From Streptomyces sp. NBC_01116 (GTDB lineage Bacteria > Actinomycetota > Actinomycetes > Streptomycetales > Streptomycetaceae), in the NCBI RefSeq assembly GCF_041435495.1, contig NZ_CP108644.1:1550001-1614000 (forward strand): a stretch of 64,000 nt of DNA. Direction: 5' to 3'. Below, one piece after another: positions 25,674 through 30,991 of this stretch. Below the pieces are notes generated by a model. The model saw only the letters and a list, made by a program, of their open reading frames with translations. It was not told the DNA's origin and made no database searches. The first letter of the stretch is position 1. Each line of letters opens with the position of its first letter. The position numbers and the translations under genes were made by a program.

Positions 25674-25997
25674 GGCTGTTTCCTCCCGGACGTGCGGTGC
25701 GGAGCCGTGCTGTGCGGAGCGCCGGAGCCGTGCGGCGCGGGGCAGTACGTCGCACCCGCCCAAACTAGCGCCGTTAGTTTTCCGGCGCCAGGGAGCTTCC
25801 GGAGACGCCCGTCACGCCCGGCCCGCACGCCCCCGGCGCGGGCGTCCCGCCCCGACGCCGCGGACCGCGGGCGGAGACCGTCTGTATCGATCGCCGGGGT
25901 GGCGCTATGTTCTTCGGGCATCACCCGGGAGGAATTCGGCAGGCGGCGCGTGACCGGCGGTCCCGTGCCCGGACGCGCGACGGGGGCGGTCGAGCGG
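25674..25997. other. 324-bp divergent intergenic region
   Basis: It contains the aldehyde dehydrogenase ribosome site, the palindromic operator at 25762-25780 and a GC-rich stretch. On the right lies the region before the TIR-WD40 gene, where in-frame GTG codons at 25950 and 25965 are possible earlier starts. GGGAGGAATTC at 25927 is a strong ribosome-like element but too far from any start. Confidence 0.55.
25763..25779. promoter_or_regulatory. TetR-type operator, AAYTAGCRCYGYTAGTT (site B)
   Basis: AACTAGCGCCGTTAGTT here shares 13 of 17 bases with site A. Counting flanks (25762-25780) it forms 8 of 9 possible base pairs around a central C. It lies 90 bases before the aldehyde dehydrogenase start. 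Confidence 0.8.
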
Positions 25998-28874
25998 ATG
26001 AGCTCATCTCTGCGGCGTCCCGGCACACGGCAGGACCGCCGGTGGCGGCGCGTGGGCGGCGCCTCTCGCGGCGAGCCGGGCGCGTACGACGCGTTCATCT
26101 CGTACAGCCACGCCTGGGACAAGGACGTGGCGAAGGCCTTCCAGGACGCGTTGCAGGGTTTCGACCGCCCCTGGTACCGGCCGAGGAGCCTGAGGCTGTT
26201 CCGTGACGAGACCAATCTCGCGGCAAGTCCTCATCTGTGGCGGGAGATCGAGCAGGGGCTGGCCCGGTCACGGTGGCTCGTGATCATGGCGTGTCCGTCG
26301 GCCGCCGCGTCCCCGTGGGTGCGGCAGGAGATCCGCTGGTGGCTCACCCACCGTTCCGCGGACACCCTGCTCATCGGCTGGACCGACGGCACCCTGCTCT
26401 GGGACTCCGCACGGGCGGGGTTCGACTGGTCGCACACCGACGCCCTGCCGCAGCAGGAGATGGAGCGGGCGTTCGAGGAGGAGCCCCGTTGGGTGGACCT
26501 GCGCTGGCTGCGCAGTCCGGAACAGGCCAGTGCCGCGGACCCCCGGCTGGTCGAATGCGTCGCGGAGTTCTTCGCACCGCTGACGGGCCGGTCCAAGGAC
26601 GATGTGCTCGGCGACCACGTACGCCGGCACCGCCAGACCCGCCGCGTGGTGCGGGCCACGCTCGCGGCGCTCACCGTCCTGTTCCTCCTGGCCGTCGCCG
26701 GCGGGGTCACCGCCTACACCCAGCGCAACGAGGCCCGTGCCCAGACCCTGGTCGCACAGTCGAGGCAGCTGGTCGCCGAGGCCTCGTCGATCAGGGACGC
26801 CCAGCCGGACCTGGCACGCCAGTTGATGGTGCAGGCGTACCGGCTCGCGCCGACGGCCGAGGCGGTCGGCGCGCTCGTCGACAGCTACGCGATGCCTCGG
26901 GTCGTCCACGGCCGCGGACCGGTGCGGGCGGCCGTGTACAGCAGCCGGGGCCTGCTGGCCGTGGCCGACGACGGGCTACGGCTGTTCGACCCCGCGAGCG
27001 GAACGCGGCCGGTCTTCACGGAGTCCGTGAAGCGCCGGACGACGGCGCTCGCCTTCAGCCCGGACGGCAGACGGCTGGCTGTCGGCGGCCCGAACGGCAC
27101 CGTGCGGCTGCTGGACGTGACGGATGCCGGCAGCCCCAGGGTCCTGGCGGAGACGACGGGGGTGGGCGACCGCAGGGATGTCGCGGTCCTCGTCCTCACC
27201 TCCGACGGGCGGCTGATCGCCATGACGTGGAAGACCGGCGCCGTCCTCGACGTCTCGGACCCCGCCCGGCCGAAGCCTCTCGGATCGTTGCCCGACTATC
27301 CGGTAGCGGCGAGTCCGGACGGCGGTCTGCTCGTAACCGAGGGACGGGCCGCGAACGGAGGTTACTTGGGACACATGCGGCTGTGGGCCCTGTCCGGCTC
27401 CGGCGGGCCGCGCCCGGTCGCCACCATCGCCTCGCCCCCCGTCGACAACTCCGAATCCCCGCAGCGCGCGGTGTTCAGCCCCACCGGCCCGCTGCTGGCC
27501 ATCGCCGCCGAGGACAGCAGGGTGAAGCTCTGGGACGTCGCGGACCCCGCCCGGCCGGTCGCCCGGGCGGACCTGTACACGCGGAGCAGGTTCGGCGTCT
27601 ACGCGGTGGCCTTCTCCTCCGACGCGAGGACCCTCGCCACCGGGGACAGTGACGGCACCGTCGCCCTCTGGGACGTGTCCGACCCCTTGCGCCCCCGTTC
27701 CGGCGCCCGGTTGAGCGGCCACACCAGGACGGTGGGCAGGCTCTCCTTCAGCCCGGACGGGCACACCGTGGCGTCGGCCGACGCCCACGAAACGCTGCTC
27801 GACGACAGGACGGGCCCCCACGCCGTCCGCCTGTGGGCGGTGTCGGGAAGCGAGCGGACCTCCACGTTCACGACCCTGCCGACCGAGGGGGTCTTTCCGC
27901 CCTCGTTCGATCCGGACAGCCGCGTACTGGCCGCCGGCGGCCGGCCCACGACCGTGTGGAGCGTGGACGGCGCCACCCCGCCCCGGCTCCTCTCGACCGT
28001 GGAGACGGTCAATCCCGGCGGCCAGGCCGCGGCCTTCGGCACGGACGGGCGCACCCTGGTCTCCGGCACGCCCCTGAAGGCGTGGGACCTGACCGACCCG
28101 TCCCGCCCGCGGCTCTCGACCCGGGGCGCGGCCCGCACGGTCGGGGCGAAGAGCCTGGCCGTCAACCCCGTCCTGCCGTTGGCGGCGGCGCGGGGCGGTC
28201 CCGGTGACCGGGCGCAGGTGTGGGACATCGGTGACCCGGCCCGACCCGTTCTGCTCGGCGCGCTCGACAGCGCGGGCTCCGGTCACCAGGATCTCGCCTT
28301 CAGCCCGGACGGTGCGCTGCTGGCGGCGCCGACCCGGACGGGAGGCGTACGGCTGTGGCGGGTCGCCCGGCAGGCCCCGCCCGGCCCCGCGGGCGACCTC
28401 CCGGCGGCGAAGGGCGTGCGCGCGCTGGCATTCGGACCGCGGGGCCGCAGCCTGCTCGTCGGGGACGAGACGGGAACGATCAGCACCTGGGACGTGTCGC
28501 GGCCCGGGCATCCGGTGCGCCGGGGGGCCTCCACCCGGCACACGGACGCCGTCTCCGGGCTCGCCTTCCATCCCGACGGGGAACTCGTGGCCACCGCGGG
28601 CCTGGACGGCCGTATCCGCCTCTGGGACTTCAGGAACCCGGCCCGGCCCGTCGAAGTGACCACGTTGAGTACCGGTGCCCTGTACCACCACACGACCGTG
28701 GGCTTCAGCCCGGACGGGCGCCTGCTGGCGGTGACCGACGGCTCCGGCACCCGGCTGTGGACGGTGGACCGGACCGGCATCCTGCAGCGGCTGTGCGCCG
28801 AGTCCCCGCGCATCACCCCCGACCAGTGGGCCCAGTACCTCCCGGACCGGCCCTACGACCCGCCCTGTTCCTGA
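25998..28874 (+). CDS. TIR domain, transmembrane, WD40-repeat protein
   Basis: This is a 958-residue membrane protein. Residues about 28-180 form a TIR domain (YDAFISYSHAWDKDVAKAF, then RLFRDETNLAASPHLWREIE and SPWVRQEIRWW, whose glutamate near 112 sits where NAD-cleaving TIR enzymes keep their catalytic acid). One membrane helix lies near 216-236 (ATLAALTVLFLLAVAGGVTA), followed by a coiled linker. I then count 14 blade-ending motifs of the type VRLWDV-DPARP between about 325 and 940, fitting two seven-bladed propellers. The TIR domain would be cytoplasmic and the propellers extracytoplasmic, or both inside if the helix is not inserted. The start is ATG 25998. A lipoprotein gene follows at 26 bases. 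Confidence 0.85.
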   Translation: MSSSLRRPGTRQDRRWRRVGGASRGEPGAYDAFISYSHAWDKDVAKAFQDALQGFDRPWYRPRSLRLFRDETNLAASPHLWREIEQGLARSRWLVIMACPSAAASPWVRQEIRWWLTHRSADTLLIGWTDGTLLWDSARAGFDWSHTDALPQQEMERAFEEEPRWVDLRWLRSPEQASAADPRLVECVAEFFAPLTGRSKDDVLGDHVRRHRQTRRVVRATLAALTVLFLLAVAGGVTAYTQRNEARAQTLVAQSRQLVAEASSIRDAQPDLARQLMVQAYRLAPTAEAVGALVDSYAMPRVVHGRGPVRAAVYSSRGLLAVADDGLRLFDPASGTRPVFTESVKRRTTALAFSPDGRRLAVGGPNGTVRLLDVTDAGSPRVLAETTGVGDRRDVAVLVLTSDGRLIAMTWKTGAVLDVSDPARPKPLGSLPDYPVAASPDGGLLVTEGRAANGGYLGHMRLWALSGSGGPRPVATIASPPVDNSESPQRAVFSPTGPLLAIAAEDSRVKLWDVADPARPVARADLYTRSRFGVYAVAFSSDARTLATGDSDGTVALWDVSDPLRPRSGARLSGHTRTVGRLSFSPDGHTVASADAHETLLDDRTGPHAVRLWAVSGSERTSTFTTLPTEGVFPPSFDPDSRVLAAGGRPTTVWSVDGATPPRLLSTVETVNPGGQAAAFGTDGRTLVSGTPLKAWDLTDPSRPRLSTRGAARTVGAKSLAVNPVLPLAAARGGPGDRAQVWDIGDPARPVLLGALDSAGSGHQDLAFSPDGALLAAPTRTGGVRLWRVARQAPPGPAGDLPAAKGVRALAFGPRGRSLLVGDETGTISTWDVSRPGHPVRRGASTRHTDAVSGLAFHPDGELVATAGLDGRIRLWDFRNPARPVEVTTLSTGALYHHTTVGFSPDGRLLAVTDGSGTRLWTVDRTGILQRLCAESPRITPDQWAQYLPDRPYDPPCS

Positions 28875-28900
28875 CCCACGAGTACGAGACGGAGAACACT

Positions 28901-29581
28901 GTGGCAAACGGCTTACGGCACGTCCTCCCGTTCACCGCGTTCCTGACGGCCCTGCTGGCCACCGGCGCGTGCGACGCCTCCGACCCCGCTCCCCGGATCA
29001 CGCCTTCGACCCAGCGCCCGGCTTCCTCCGCCCCCGCCTCCCCGCCGGAGTCCCCTCGGGAGACCCCCTCGGTCGTCGGACCCGCGCCGGCGGACCTGCG
29101 CGACATGGACTGGTCAGAGGTCCCTGTCCCGGGAGAGTTCTGCGGCGTGCCGGGGCTGGTGCGCGTCGACGCCACGGGCGATGCCCTGGCCACCTCACGG
29201 ACCTGGGGAACGGTCCGCGTCAGCCGAACCCAGAACATCGTCTACGGCGATTCCGACGGCGACCGCCGCGACGAGGCCGCCGTCTTCGTCGGGTGCGACG
29301 ACAACGGCCTCACGCAGAACGCGGACATCGCCGTCGCGTACGTGGTGTACGGGCACGCGGGAAAGGACCTCGCCGTCATCGGCTCGATCACCCCGCGCCA
29401 GAAGTCCGCCGCTTACCACGCCGGGCTGGTGGGAGTGGAGTTCGCACCGGGCCGGATCGTCGTGAGCGAGAAGTGGTTCCGCCCCAACGACGCGCACTGC
29501 TGCCCGAGCGGGGACGCGACCACCGTCTGGACCCGTGAAGGCGACCGGCTGACTCCCGGCGCCCCCCGCGTCACCTCGTGA
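28901..29581 (+). CDS. putative lipoprotein with a TTA codon, partner of the TIR-WD40 protein
   Basis: This is a 226-residue exported protein. The N-terminus has a hydrophobic stretch followed by LLATGAC, a plausible lipobox with the cysteine near residue 24, then a Pro/Ser/Thr-rich spacer to about 60. The folded part (residues 68-226) contains paired cysteines (EFCGVPG, VGCDD, HCCPSG) and a calcium-type loop YGDSDGDRRDEA. I do not recognise the family. GGAG lies 7 bases before GTG 28901. Codon 5 is TTA (28913-28915), so translation should depend on the bldA tRNA. It is operonic with the gene upstream. Confidence 0.75.
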   Translation: MANGLRHVLPFTAFLTALLATGACDASDPAPRITPSTQRPASSAPASPPESPRETPSVVGPAPADLRDMDWSEVPVPGEFCGVPGLVRVDATGDALATSRTWGTVRVSRTQNIVYGDSDGDRRDEAAVFVGCDDNGLTQNADIAVAYVVYGHAGKDLAVIGSITPRQKSAAYHAGLVGVEFAPGRIVVSEKWFRPNDAHCCPSGDATTVWTREGDRLTPGAPRVTS

Positions 29582-29590
29582 GGGGGGCGC
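29559..29590. terminator. terminator overlapping the lipoprotein stop
   Basis: A 9-base-pair stem GCGCCCCCC/GGGGGGCGC encloses the last codons and the TGA of the lipoprotein gene. It separates it from the convergent MFS gene. Confidence 0.75.
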
Positions 29591-29656
29591 TTCGCGAGGG
29601 ACGAGGGAGGCGGTGTGACGGGAGCGGTGTGCGGGCGGCGGGCGTGCGGGGAGGCG

Positions 29657-30991
29657 TCAGGCTTCCGGGCCCTTGAGGGCCCGCCCCGGCCCGGTACGCC
29701 CGGTTCGTGCGGCGCGCCCGTCAGCGATGCTCCGGTGAGGTGCCGGGGGTGCCGGGGCGGGGTCCGGGGGTGCCGGGGCAGGGTCCGGGGGTGCCGGGGC
29801 AGGGTCCGGGCGCCCCTCGCCGCGCAGTCCGAGGCCCGCCGCCCCGATCAGGAAGACGCCGAGCAGCGCGAACGGGGCCGCCACTCCCACCGCGCCCGCG
29901 ATCAGCCCCGCCGCGGCGGGTGCGGCGACCTGGCCGAGCCGGTTGCCGGTCAGCCGGAGGGCGAGCGCGGTGGACCGGGCCCGGTCGGGGGCGGCCCGGA
30001 CCACGGTGGTCATGGACAGCGGCTGGCCGACGCCGAGGCAGAAGCCGAGCACGGCGAGCATGACGGCGAGGACCGGGACGGAGACGGGGAGGGCGACGCC
30101 CGCGCAGAGGAGTCCGGCGAGCAGGCAGCTGGTGGTCAGCAGGGCCCTGCGGCCCAGCAGCCGCAGCAGCGGCGACATGACCAGCCGGCAGGCGATCGTG
30201 GCGGCGGCGCGCAGGCTCAGCAGCAGCCCCACGGTGGCCGGCGCGATGGAGCGGTGTTCGCCGACGACCGGCAGGTAGGCGGTGAGGATGTCGGTGGCGG
30301 ACAGCACCGCCATGCTGATGAAGATGCCCGCGGGAACGCCCCGCGCGCCCAGGATCGCGCGGACCGGGACCTTGTGGCCCGGACCGGCGCCGGAGCCCTT
30401 CGCCCGGCGGTGCTCGATGCGCCAGAGCGAGGCGAGGGCGACGGCGGCGACCGCGGCCGAGACGAGGAGGGCCAGCGCGCTCGTCCGGCCCAGGATCCCG
30501 CCCTGCCCGGAGATGAGCGCGCCCGCGGCGACGGGGCCGATGAGCTGGCCGAGCGAGGCCCCGATGGTGAAGTGCCCGAAGTTGCGGTCCTGCTCGGCGG
30601 GCGCGGACTGCCGGGCCACGATCGACTGCGCGCCGATCACGAAGCACAGGTGGCCGAGGCCCATCACCCCGCTCCAGGCGGCCATCGCGGGCAGCGAGGA
30701 GGCGATGCCGCTCAGCGCGCAGCCGCCGGAGATCAGGAGCACGCCGAGCGGCAGCAGGGGCGCGCAGCGGCCGTGGTCGGTACGGCGGCCGAGCGGCACG
30801 GCGACGAACAGCGGGAGCAGGGCGTAGACCCCGGCGATGACGCCGACGGCGGCCTCGTCGGCGCCGAGCGCGAGGGCCCGGTAGGAGACGGCGGGCCGCG
30901 CCATCGACACCGCCCCCTGCGCGAAGGCGAAGGCGATGACGAGGCGCAGCAGCCAGCCCCTGCCGGGCCCGGTTCGCGGTGCGCGTGTCAT
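29657..30991 (-). CDS. MFS transporter
   Basis: This is a 444-residue major facilitator exporter with twelve hydrophobic helices; the loop 2-3 motif appears as PLGRRTDHGR near residues 69-78. The last 45 residues are a hydrophilic tail containing three copies of DPAPAPP. ATG 30991 shares one base with the stop of the CitMHS gene (TAATG), so the two genes are co-translated. An MFS efflux pump behind a citrate carrier is unusual, and the substrate is unknown. Confidence 0.85.
   Translation of the reverse strand: MTRAPRTGPGRGWLLRLVIAFAFAQGAVSMARPAVSYRALALGADEAAVGVIAGVYALLPLFVAVPLGRRTDHGRCAPLLPLGVLLISGGCALSGIASSLPAMAAWSGVMGLGHLCFVIGAQSIVARQSAPAEQDRNFGHFTIGASLGQLIGPVAAGALISGQGGILGRTSALALLVSAAVAAVALASLWRIEHRRAKGSGAGPGHKVPVRAILGARGVPAGIFISMAVLSATDILTAYLPVVGEHRSIAPATVGLLLSLRAAATIACRLVMSPLLRLLGRRALLTTSCLLAGLLCAGVALPVSVPVLAVMLAVLGFCLGVGQPLSMTTVVRAAPDRARSTALALRLTGNRLGQVAAPAAAGLIAGAVGVAAPFALLGVFLIGAAGLGLRGEGRPDPAPAPPDPAPAPPDPAPAPPAPHRSIADGRAARTGRTGPGRALKGPEA
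29750..29812. repeat. tandem 21-bp repeat inside the MFS gene
   Basis: Three copies of TGCCGGGGCRGGGTCCGGGGG encode the DPAPAPP repeats in the cytoplasmic tail. The copies differ at only one or two bases, which suggests recent expansion. Confidence 0.9.

Follow-up and report, generated by a model that had tools for sequence, protein, structure and literature searches.

A mobile TIR–WD40 receptor-like module with a paired lipoprotein gene in Streptomyces

Here we describe a gene module from Streptomyces sp. NBC_01116, located in a stretch of 64,000 nucleotides (hereafter the window; all coordinates of module features are positions within it). The module occupies 25863–29600 on the forward strand and consists of the 5' remnant of a gene that we call P3 (P0003 family), a gene whose product combines a TIR domain, a single membrane helix, a helical linker and two WD40 propellers, and a lipoprotein gene. 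It is a real, conserved and mobile module of two to three genes and a receptor-like variant of the bacterial TIR systems, P3 being lost in this particular copy. With a probability of about 0.5 we read it as a receptor-type TIR conflict module in which the lipoprotein would serve as co-receptor, the mechanism being deduced from the sequences and models described below. The original prediction for this region, made from the nucleotide letters, had proposed a two-gene signalling or self-killing device that senses outside the cell and acts through TIR inside it. This view is partly supported: the pair is real, the unit is larger in that it also takes in what is left of a third gene at its 5' side, and P3 with its deletion, as well as receptor subtypes with another lipoprotein or none, had been overlooked.

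Results

The receptor protein and its relatives

The receptor gene (25998–28874, forward strand, ATG to TGA) encodes 958 amino acids (aa). Its product matches the Pfam families TIR_2 (PF13676; E 1.2e-8, 35.9 bits at a cut-off of 28, residues 33–117), ThsB_TIR (PF08937; 25.0 bits at a cut-off of 21.2, residues 33–114) and WD40 (PF00400; E 3e-42). As delimited by Pfam and by conserved columns in the alignments A1 and A2, the TIR domain with its conserved C-terminal extension covers residues 30–170 (26085–26507). In the AlphaFold2 model, built on 26 aligned sequences with a mean predicted local distance difference test score (pLDDT) of 84.9, one continuous long helix at residues 200–265 is followed by two further helices, and residues 301–922 (26898–28763) hold 52 listed strands of at least three residues, or 13–14 four-stranded blades. 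These are best read as two 7-bladed propellers, and the PDB matches of the model include double 7-bladed propellers such as 1nr0. The membrane helix, at about residues 217–235 (26646–26702), has a mean hydropathy of 2.17, follows shortly after RRHRQTRR and lies inside the long model helix. The originally predicted make-up of TIR, single membrane helix and about 14 blades is thus confirmed. No NTPase profile was found by Pfam in residues 1–305, and only helices and loops are seen in the model at 182–298. The C-terminal tail (28764–28871) contains the cysteines C933 and C957, invariant across the 26 aligned sequences, and the signature LCAxSPxITPDQWxQYLPxxPYDPPC of the subtype called A below.

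Relatives of this protein were gathered with a TIR profile built from five rows, which at E 1e-30 matched 25 of 392 Streptomyces genomes in 41 places, and which matched 47 loci in a collection of named genomes (loci and genomes carry our own L and G labels). The full-length frames with TIR, helix and propellers number 86, or 78 once duplicates are removed; these 78 are kin, so that counts over them are not 78 independent trials. Dropped before counting were frames shorter than 700 residues from the TIR start or with a TIR match below 200 residues, namely L036 and L057 (both subtype-A-like with a broken frame), L061, L063/L081, the L087 fragment, L096 and L104. By their C-terminal tails the 78 were sorted into subtypes named in this analysis: A (14, with the window protein), B (14), C (19) and 31 others. 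One row of subtype B, L046 from Rubrivivax, is mislabelled by its C-terminal pattern.

The presumed catalytic residue of the TIR domain is E111 (codon 26328–26330), a glutamate in 78 of the 78 relatives. It aligns with the glutamate of the W-x-x-x-E-[IL] motif in the plant TIR 3jrn and in 7uxr, which we take to be catalytic. The expectation of a retained glutamate was therefore right, and its position, given as near residue 112, is corrected to 111.

The window protein has six lysines and arginines in the 18 residues before the membrane helix versus two in the 18 after it, and an excess before the helix, over flanks of the same length, is found in 68 of the 78 relatives. The number of cysteines behind the helix is even in 68 of the 78 (two in 39, four in 18, six in 8, ten in 2, none in 1) and odd in 10. 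Since the even parity is disulfide-like and the charge is biased, we infer a cytoplasmic TIR domain, with propellers and lipoprotein probably extracytoplasmic. Together with the model, these features favor the membrane topology that the original prediction had assumed.

The paired lipoprotein gene

The second gene (28901–29581, 226 aa) starts with GTG 26 bases past the stop codon of the receptor gene, as had been noticed before. Its product consists of a signal peptide, the lipid cysteine C24, a Pro/Ser linker and a globular beta domain at about residues 57–219. C24 and four further cysteines are invariant in 10 aligned sequences. The lipobox LLATGAC of the window protein is weak, with T at position -3, and better ones are present in orthologs (LAVAGC, LLTAGC, LLSAGC); on inspection, the hydrophobic stretch and the invariant C24 identify the protein as a putative lipoprotein. 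With its DxDxD pattern, the loop at residues 115–121, YGDSDGD (29243–29263), is similar to those of calcium-binding or FG-GAP type, with Y115 and G116 invariant and D117, G120 and D121 nearly so; one ortholog gives a weak, sub-threshold FG-GAP match (E 0.043). Membership in the LppP/LprE family (PF14041) was considered and rejected, the score of 15.2 bits (E 0.024) being below the cut-off of 25. No match to PDB sequences was obtained at E 5, and the structural model (pLDDT 75.5) found no confident fold, with a best Foldseek E of 0.13. Its best VIA Z is 8.6, mostly to propeller fragments, and we read the fold as a beta-meander with a perhaps propeller-related origin.

Conservation of the pair, which the original prediction had put at stake, was confirmed: the lipoprotein gene stands immediately 3' of every one of the 13 subtype-A receptor genes that could be tested. 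The automated count gave 12 of 14; the second L034 gene, for which a stronger upstream match had hidden the lipoprotein copy directly downstream, was added by hand, and L038, whose contig stops about 230 bases past the TIR stop, lies outside the test. The paired loci include S. cynarae (plasmid NZ_CP106794), S. triculaminicus (L030), S. boluensis, S. griseus BIG105, S. calvus (two pairs), S. altiplanensis, Streptantibioticus rubrisoli and a metagenome-assembled genome of Streptosporangiaceae. The subtype-A lipoprotein was never seen directly 3' of receptor genes of subtypes B, C or the others. In subtype B, a different lipoprotein-like gene, lipo2, lies directly upstream of the receptor gene in 13 of 14 cases, the mislabelled L046 being the only one without it; it has no similarity to the first lipoprotein at E 1e-5.

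In the 13 pairs compared, distances among the lipoproteins track those among the propellers (r 0.90, Mantel p 2e-4) more closely than those among the TIR domains (r 0.74). TIR and propeller distances are themselves correlated (r 0.84), and therefore shared ancestry accounts for part of the lipoprotein–propeller correlation. Against four orthologs, the ratio of nonsynonymous to synonymous substitution rates (dN/dS) is 0.18–0.24 in the TIR core, 0.30–0.63 in the propellers and 0.38–0.68 in the lipoprotein. As the pair is conserved and dN/dS is below 1 throughout, the association of the two genes goes beyond chance.

In a reverse search, the lipoprotein was found in 10 of 199 Streptomyces genomes. 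The two strong matches (G000, G118) adjoin TIR genes and eight are weak; at six of the eight weak loci (L105–L110, thus excluding G150 and G095) no TIR gene was detected with the A1 profile at E 1e-10. The distant lipoprotein relatives at L105–L108, which have no nearby TIR gene, share similar D-W, PG-x-x-C and CCPSG motifs.

Deletion of P3 and insertion of the module

The window sequence 25863–26060 is 82% identical to L030 9004–9206, the 5' end of the intact P3 gene of S. triculaminicus, and 26055–29600 matches the TIR and lipoprotein genes of the same strain at 86%. About 0.77 kb of L030 between the two matching stretches is missing from the window. The remnant at 25863–26060 retains the upstream region, the start codon and about 20 codons of P3, in frame with the receptor gene; the junction lies near RRWRRVGG-ASRGEPG. 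Because the alignment shows the first P3 codons continuing into the TIR gene, the ATG at 25998 is the start codon of P3. Thus, judging by this alignment, P3 is deleted in the window strain and its start codon is fused in frame to the TIR gene. Elsewhere in the same genome, at 6.85 Mb, P3 is present together with two additional receptor genes, of subtypes C and B. At that locus (L029 4622–12217) P3 and lipo2 lie between the two receptor genes.

Comparison of the window segment 20001–36000 with L030 gives just these two matching stretches, and homology ends at the ends of the module. The module sits between an aldehyde dehydrogenase gene and a major facilitator superfamily (MFS) transporter gene, which are conserved in relatives that lack it; in two empty sites (G019 and G021) the conserved flanks are about 145 and 207 bp apart. 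By alignment, the module is an insertion and mobile. Ten other intervals between the flanks were seen, and several hold genes that look ABC-ATPase-like or sortase-like by eye. Broken or truncated receptor or P3 copies among the relatives (L036, L057, L063/L081, L087, L104) suggest frequent gain and loss.

We doubt that the window copy is a relic, inactivated by the loss of P3 and now drifting. The in-frame deletion and at least five broken copies among relatives fit such a history. However, both frames are intact and the fusion preserved the TIR frame; L032 and L078, likewise without P3, have both genes intact; and the P3 copy at 6.85 Mb could substitute. Between the window and L030, dN/dS is 0.18 for TIR, 0.37 for the propellers and 0.38 for the lipoprotein, values of which much may reflect divergence older than the deletion.

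P3 and the NUDIX neighbors

P3 combines a domain of some 160 residues with one or two membrane helices, the latter predicted by eye; versions near subtype C have no membrane helices. It stands directly upstream and in the same direction in 6 of the 14 subtype-A genes (L019, L030, L031, L033, L037, L039), and nearby on the opposite strand in 2 of the 14. Within 3 kb on either strand it accompanies 8 of 14 receptor genes of subtype A, 11 of 19 of C, 7 of 14 of B and 4 of 31 others, some loci being counted for two receptors. At E 1e-15, P3 was detected in 20 of the 199 Streptomyces genomes searched, and in a phylum-wide sample of 178 genomes it was found at E 1e-8 in one, the own genome of the window strain. 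No convincing match to Pfam, PADLOC models or PDB chains was obtained. Comparison of 13 P3 members with Pfam, which presumably contains an EACC1 model, gave no EACC1 match at E 0.1.

Other contexts also connect P3 with TIR. P3 lies near TIR genes on plasmids of Photobacterium, Calothrix (TIR recognized by eye in a protein annotated as GUN4), Vibrio, Mesorhizobium, Sinorhizobium and S. longwoodensis; in the eight plasmid contexts opened, a TIR gene is nearby in seven and lacking in Ruegeria, with four further hit records left out (two S. longwoodensis duplicates, Rhizobium, and records met twice). In two rhizobial plasmids P3 heads a patatin-containing protein, confirmed by Pfam in L128 and recognized by resemblance in L129; several small TIR genes flank these fusion genes (L128 4959–7535, L129 4902–7526). 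P3 is also the C-terminal part of longer Streptomyces proteins with a free P3 copy near: pairs of P3 matches 0.9–2.6 kb apart occur in nine genomes (G001, G002, G022, G060, G096 (twice), G102, G103, G152, G182), one of them lying in a frame of 622–758 aa in seven genomes and of 278–279 aa in G152 and G182. A TIR start is visible by eye in the longer proteins of L151, L152, L155 and L156, and a P-loop-like motif is likewise seen by eye; Pfam gives only TIR_2 in L152, the one scanned. Free and effector-fused P3 copies are thus found in adjacent genes, the pattern that marks an adaptor of the effector-associated domain (EAD) type. The Streptomyces loci L151–L156 and L159, with a P-loop-like middle, a C-terminal P3 and a free P3 gene near, seem to represent a distinct TIR system.

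In five distinct loci P3 is adjoined by a NUDIX gene, in each case from the same family: L019 (6586–7155), L037 (8562–9056), L062 (7554–8078), L085 (11595–12119) and L113 (7622–8161). The search covered 86 loci, some of them duplicates of each other, with a query from S. longwoodensis, to which the family members are 55–84% identical; the NUDIX gene of L030, at 35–36% identity to the others, was left out. In the PDB the family is closest to NudF proteins and ADP-ribose pyrophosphatases, which lends indirect support to ADP-ribose as a product. The gene beside P3 is a possible off-switch or antidote. No NUDIX gene of this family was found in the searched window sequence.

These neighbors also bear on whether the TIR domain is an enzyme at all. 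It might be a scaffold in a developmental signaling receptor that recruits proteins through TIR and P3; a TIR survey (PMC7075850) presents assembly of signaling complexes as the common function of TIR and degradation of nicotinamide adenine dinucleotide (NAD) as the less common one, and the membrane helices of P3 and the TTA codons described below would suit developmental signaling at the membrane. We consider this unlikely, given that E111 is kept in all 78 relatives, the NUDIX neighbors are close to ADP-ribose pyrophosphatases, the distribution is patchy (25 of 392 genomes) with the module present as an insertion, and the P3–patatin fusion of rhizobia points to conflict.

TTA codons and possible developmental timing

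Codon 5 of the lipoprotein gene (28913–28915) is TTA, as originally predicted. TTA occurs in 6 of 13 lipoprotein genes compared with 25 of 363 control genes from the same neighborhoods, or in 6 of 188 leucine codons compared with 29 of 14,146 in the controls (0.39 expected); the Poisson probability of 3e-6 assumes an independence that related genes violate. The broken L028 lipoprotein was left out of the count, the lipoprotein of L040 (Streptosporangiaceae) was included and the L040 receptor was not. Counted from the starts chosen, none of the six TTA codons lies beyond codon 11: codon 5 in the window, L030, L031 and the first L034 gene, codon 11 in L019 and codon 8 in L037, the last depending on a start that is one of several possible. 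Among the six closest aligned orthologs, codon 5 is TTA in four (window, L030, L031 and the first L034 gene) and not in L033 and L057. These four fall into three groups, between which fourfold degenerate sites agree at only 57–64% (72% between the window and L030); hence the codon has outlived much silent change.

In other strains TTA is carried by the TIR gene, so that the earlier assignment of the developmental codon to the lipoprotein gene holds here and is not general. The receptor frame contains TTA where the lipoprotein gene does not in L028, L032, L033, L040, L057 and L078, and both genes contain it in L019 and L037. Among receptor genes, the TTA count is 8 for subtype C (3.6 expected), 11 for the unclassified ones (1.9 expected) and 2 for subtype B (2.1 expected).

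A bldA tRNA gene is present in Streptomyces genomes generally; a search of this genome with a guessed pattern matched only an unrelated site. A review (PMC4255298) puts the number of TTA genes in S. coelicolor at 147, reports that TTA is biased toward gene starts, which was not seen outside Streptomycineae, and mentions clusters where TTA is found now in one gene, now in another. It is somewhat unlikely that the codons are incidental, that is, that they reflect the frequent occurrence of TTA in Streptomyces accessory genes and have no meaning for timing. On this account one would expect TTA in control genes, as seen in 25 of the 363, and in receptors without such a lipoprotein, as seen in the enrichment of subtype C and the unclassified ones; yet it leaves unexplained the retention of codon 5 in four orthologs of three groups at 57–64% fourfold agreement, the position of six lipoprotein TTAs within 11 codons of the chosen starts, the absence of enrichment in subtype B, and a gene-start bias that the same text confines to Streptomycineae. 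Overall, we take the pattern of codons as support for a putative bldA timing of the pair. No description of TTA linked to phage defense was found in the literature searched, which did not extend to subscription papers.

Since TTA alternates between the lipoprotein and the receptor gene, both proteins appear to be needed, and the lipoprotein would not be an antidote. The same observation disfavors a restraining lipoprotein, one that binds the propellers and silences TIR until its loss or its capture by a foreign molecule frees the TIR domain. Adjacent genes and the joint change of lipoprotein and propellers fit restraint as well as co-reception, but in the window, L030, L031 and the first L034 gene, where the lipoprotein gene alone contains TTA, an unrestrained receptor would be produced in young hyphae, at L028, L032, L033 and L078 TTA is in the receptor gene only, and subtype C and the others have no subtype-A lipoprotein. 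We regard restraint as quite unlikely.

Discussion

Proposed mechanism

In the co-receptor reading, the outer propellers together with the lipid-anchored surface protein would recognize an extracellular cue, candidates being a phage particle, a product of a competitor, or envelope damage. The signal would cross the single membrane helix to the cytoplasmic TIR domains, which would cluster and cleave NAD+. The outcome would be shutdown or death of the hypha, or else the production of a signal. Where present, P3, a two-helix membrane protein with a putative cytoplasmic adaptor domain, would join the TIR end, and the NUDIX enzyme of some loci would remove ADP-ribose. In the window strain, the P3 copy elsewhere in the genome could act in trans. 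The lipoprotein would be a required positive component and not an antidote, as suggested by the presence of TTA in the lipoprotein gene of some strains and in the receptor gene of others; with TTA in either gene, the complete receptor would stay off as long as bldA tRNA is not abundant.

Several observations weigh against this reading. Neither lipoprotein is in the paired position in subtype C (0 of 19) or the others (0 of 31), the lipoprotein frame of S. altiplanensis (L028) is broken, and among the dropped subtype-A-like copies a lipoprotein gene is present at L057 and gives no match at L036 and the L087 fragment. Besides the window, four subtype-A loci (L028, L032, L038, L078) have no P3 within 3 kb, and the operon position in just 6 of 14 subtype-A genes means that P3 is possibly dispensable. 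TTA is in neither gene of the second L034 pair and of L039, and the TTA counts come from related, hence dependent, genes. With PADLOC, the propellers matched a HEAT/ARM model and the TIR part the candidate family PDC-S66, and nothing else was obtained. The flanking genes are metabolic or transport genes and not defense genes. Finally, the system may be decaying, as the window copy is without P3 and NUDIX and several other copies are broken. Downstream of the module, a tandem GC-rich repeat at 29700–29830 lies in the 3'-terminal part of the MFS gene, where it encodes PAPAPPDP repeats.

If the reading is correct, bacteria would have their own equivalent of receptor-type innate immunity in an outward-looking TIR protein that works with a lipoprotein on the cell surface; to our knowledge, sensing by the bacterial TIR defense proteins (Thoeris, CBASS, STAND proteins) is intracellular. 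A developmental codon that sets the timing would tie immunity or cell death to Streptomyces differentiation. In addition, the P3 domain can be used to look for proteins that partner TIR systems in other phyla.

Comparison with known systems

STAND NTPase–WD40 proteins combine effector N-termini with an Apaf-1-like logic. The linker and WD40 half of the receptor (residues 240–957) is matched at about 33–34% by plasmid-borne Streptomyces proteins annotated as helix-turn-helix, trypsin-like or WD40; unlike STAND NTPase–WD40 proteins, the receptor has a membrane helix and no NTPase module between effector and propellers. Common ground with Thoeris ThsB is a TIR domain that passes the ThsB_TIR cut-off of Pfam, here fused to a membrane helix and propellers; no ThsA is among the two genes on either side of the module, where Pfam finds Aldedh, ADH, MFS_1 and CitMHS. 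The lipoprotein shows likeness to LppP/LprE (PF14041) and FG-GAP that is weak and below both curated cut-offs.

Kaur et al. 2020 (PMC7159879) describe an actinobacterial EACC1 system of two adjacent genes, the 5' one for a small membrane component and the other for a large effector protein linked to the membrane. P3 and the receptor are arranged likewise, although the effector here is TIR and not a caspase or cyclase, and a lipoprotein is added. As with the effector-associated domains of that paper, free P3 copies stand beside copies in longer proteins, some with TIR; unlike the described domains, P3 has no convincing match in Pfam, PADLOC or PDB. No description of a TIR–helix–propeller protein with a lipoprotein was found in the literature searched, within the scope stated above.

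Like animal Toll-like receptors, the protein has one membrane helix with, as predicted, the sensor outside and TIR inside. In contrast to them, TIR is N-terminal and the orientation is opposite, the sensor consists of two C-terminal WD40 propellers and not of leucine-rich repeats, and TIR retains the glutamate of the NAD-cleaving TIR domains. The resemblance is convergence and not membership. Tentatively, and with somewhat less confidence than we place in the conflict module as such, these proteins may be seen as a bacterial family of transmembrane TIR receptors, Toll-like by convergence, that would combine outer double propellers, a dedicated lipoprotein co-receptor, an NAD-cleaving TIR domain, the P3 adaptor, in some loci an ADP-ribose pyrophosphatase as off-switch, and arming by TTA in either essential gene. 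Two of its subtypes would use two lipoprotein families that have no detectable similarity, and P3, an undescribed domain, would be shared with TIR and patatin proteins across phyla.

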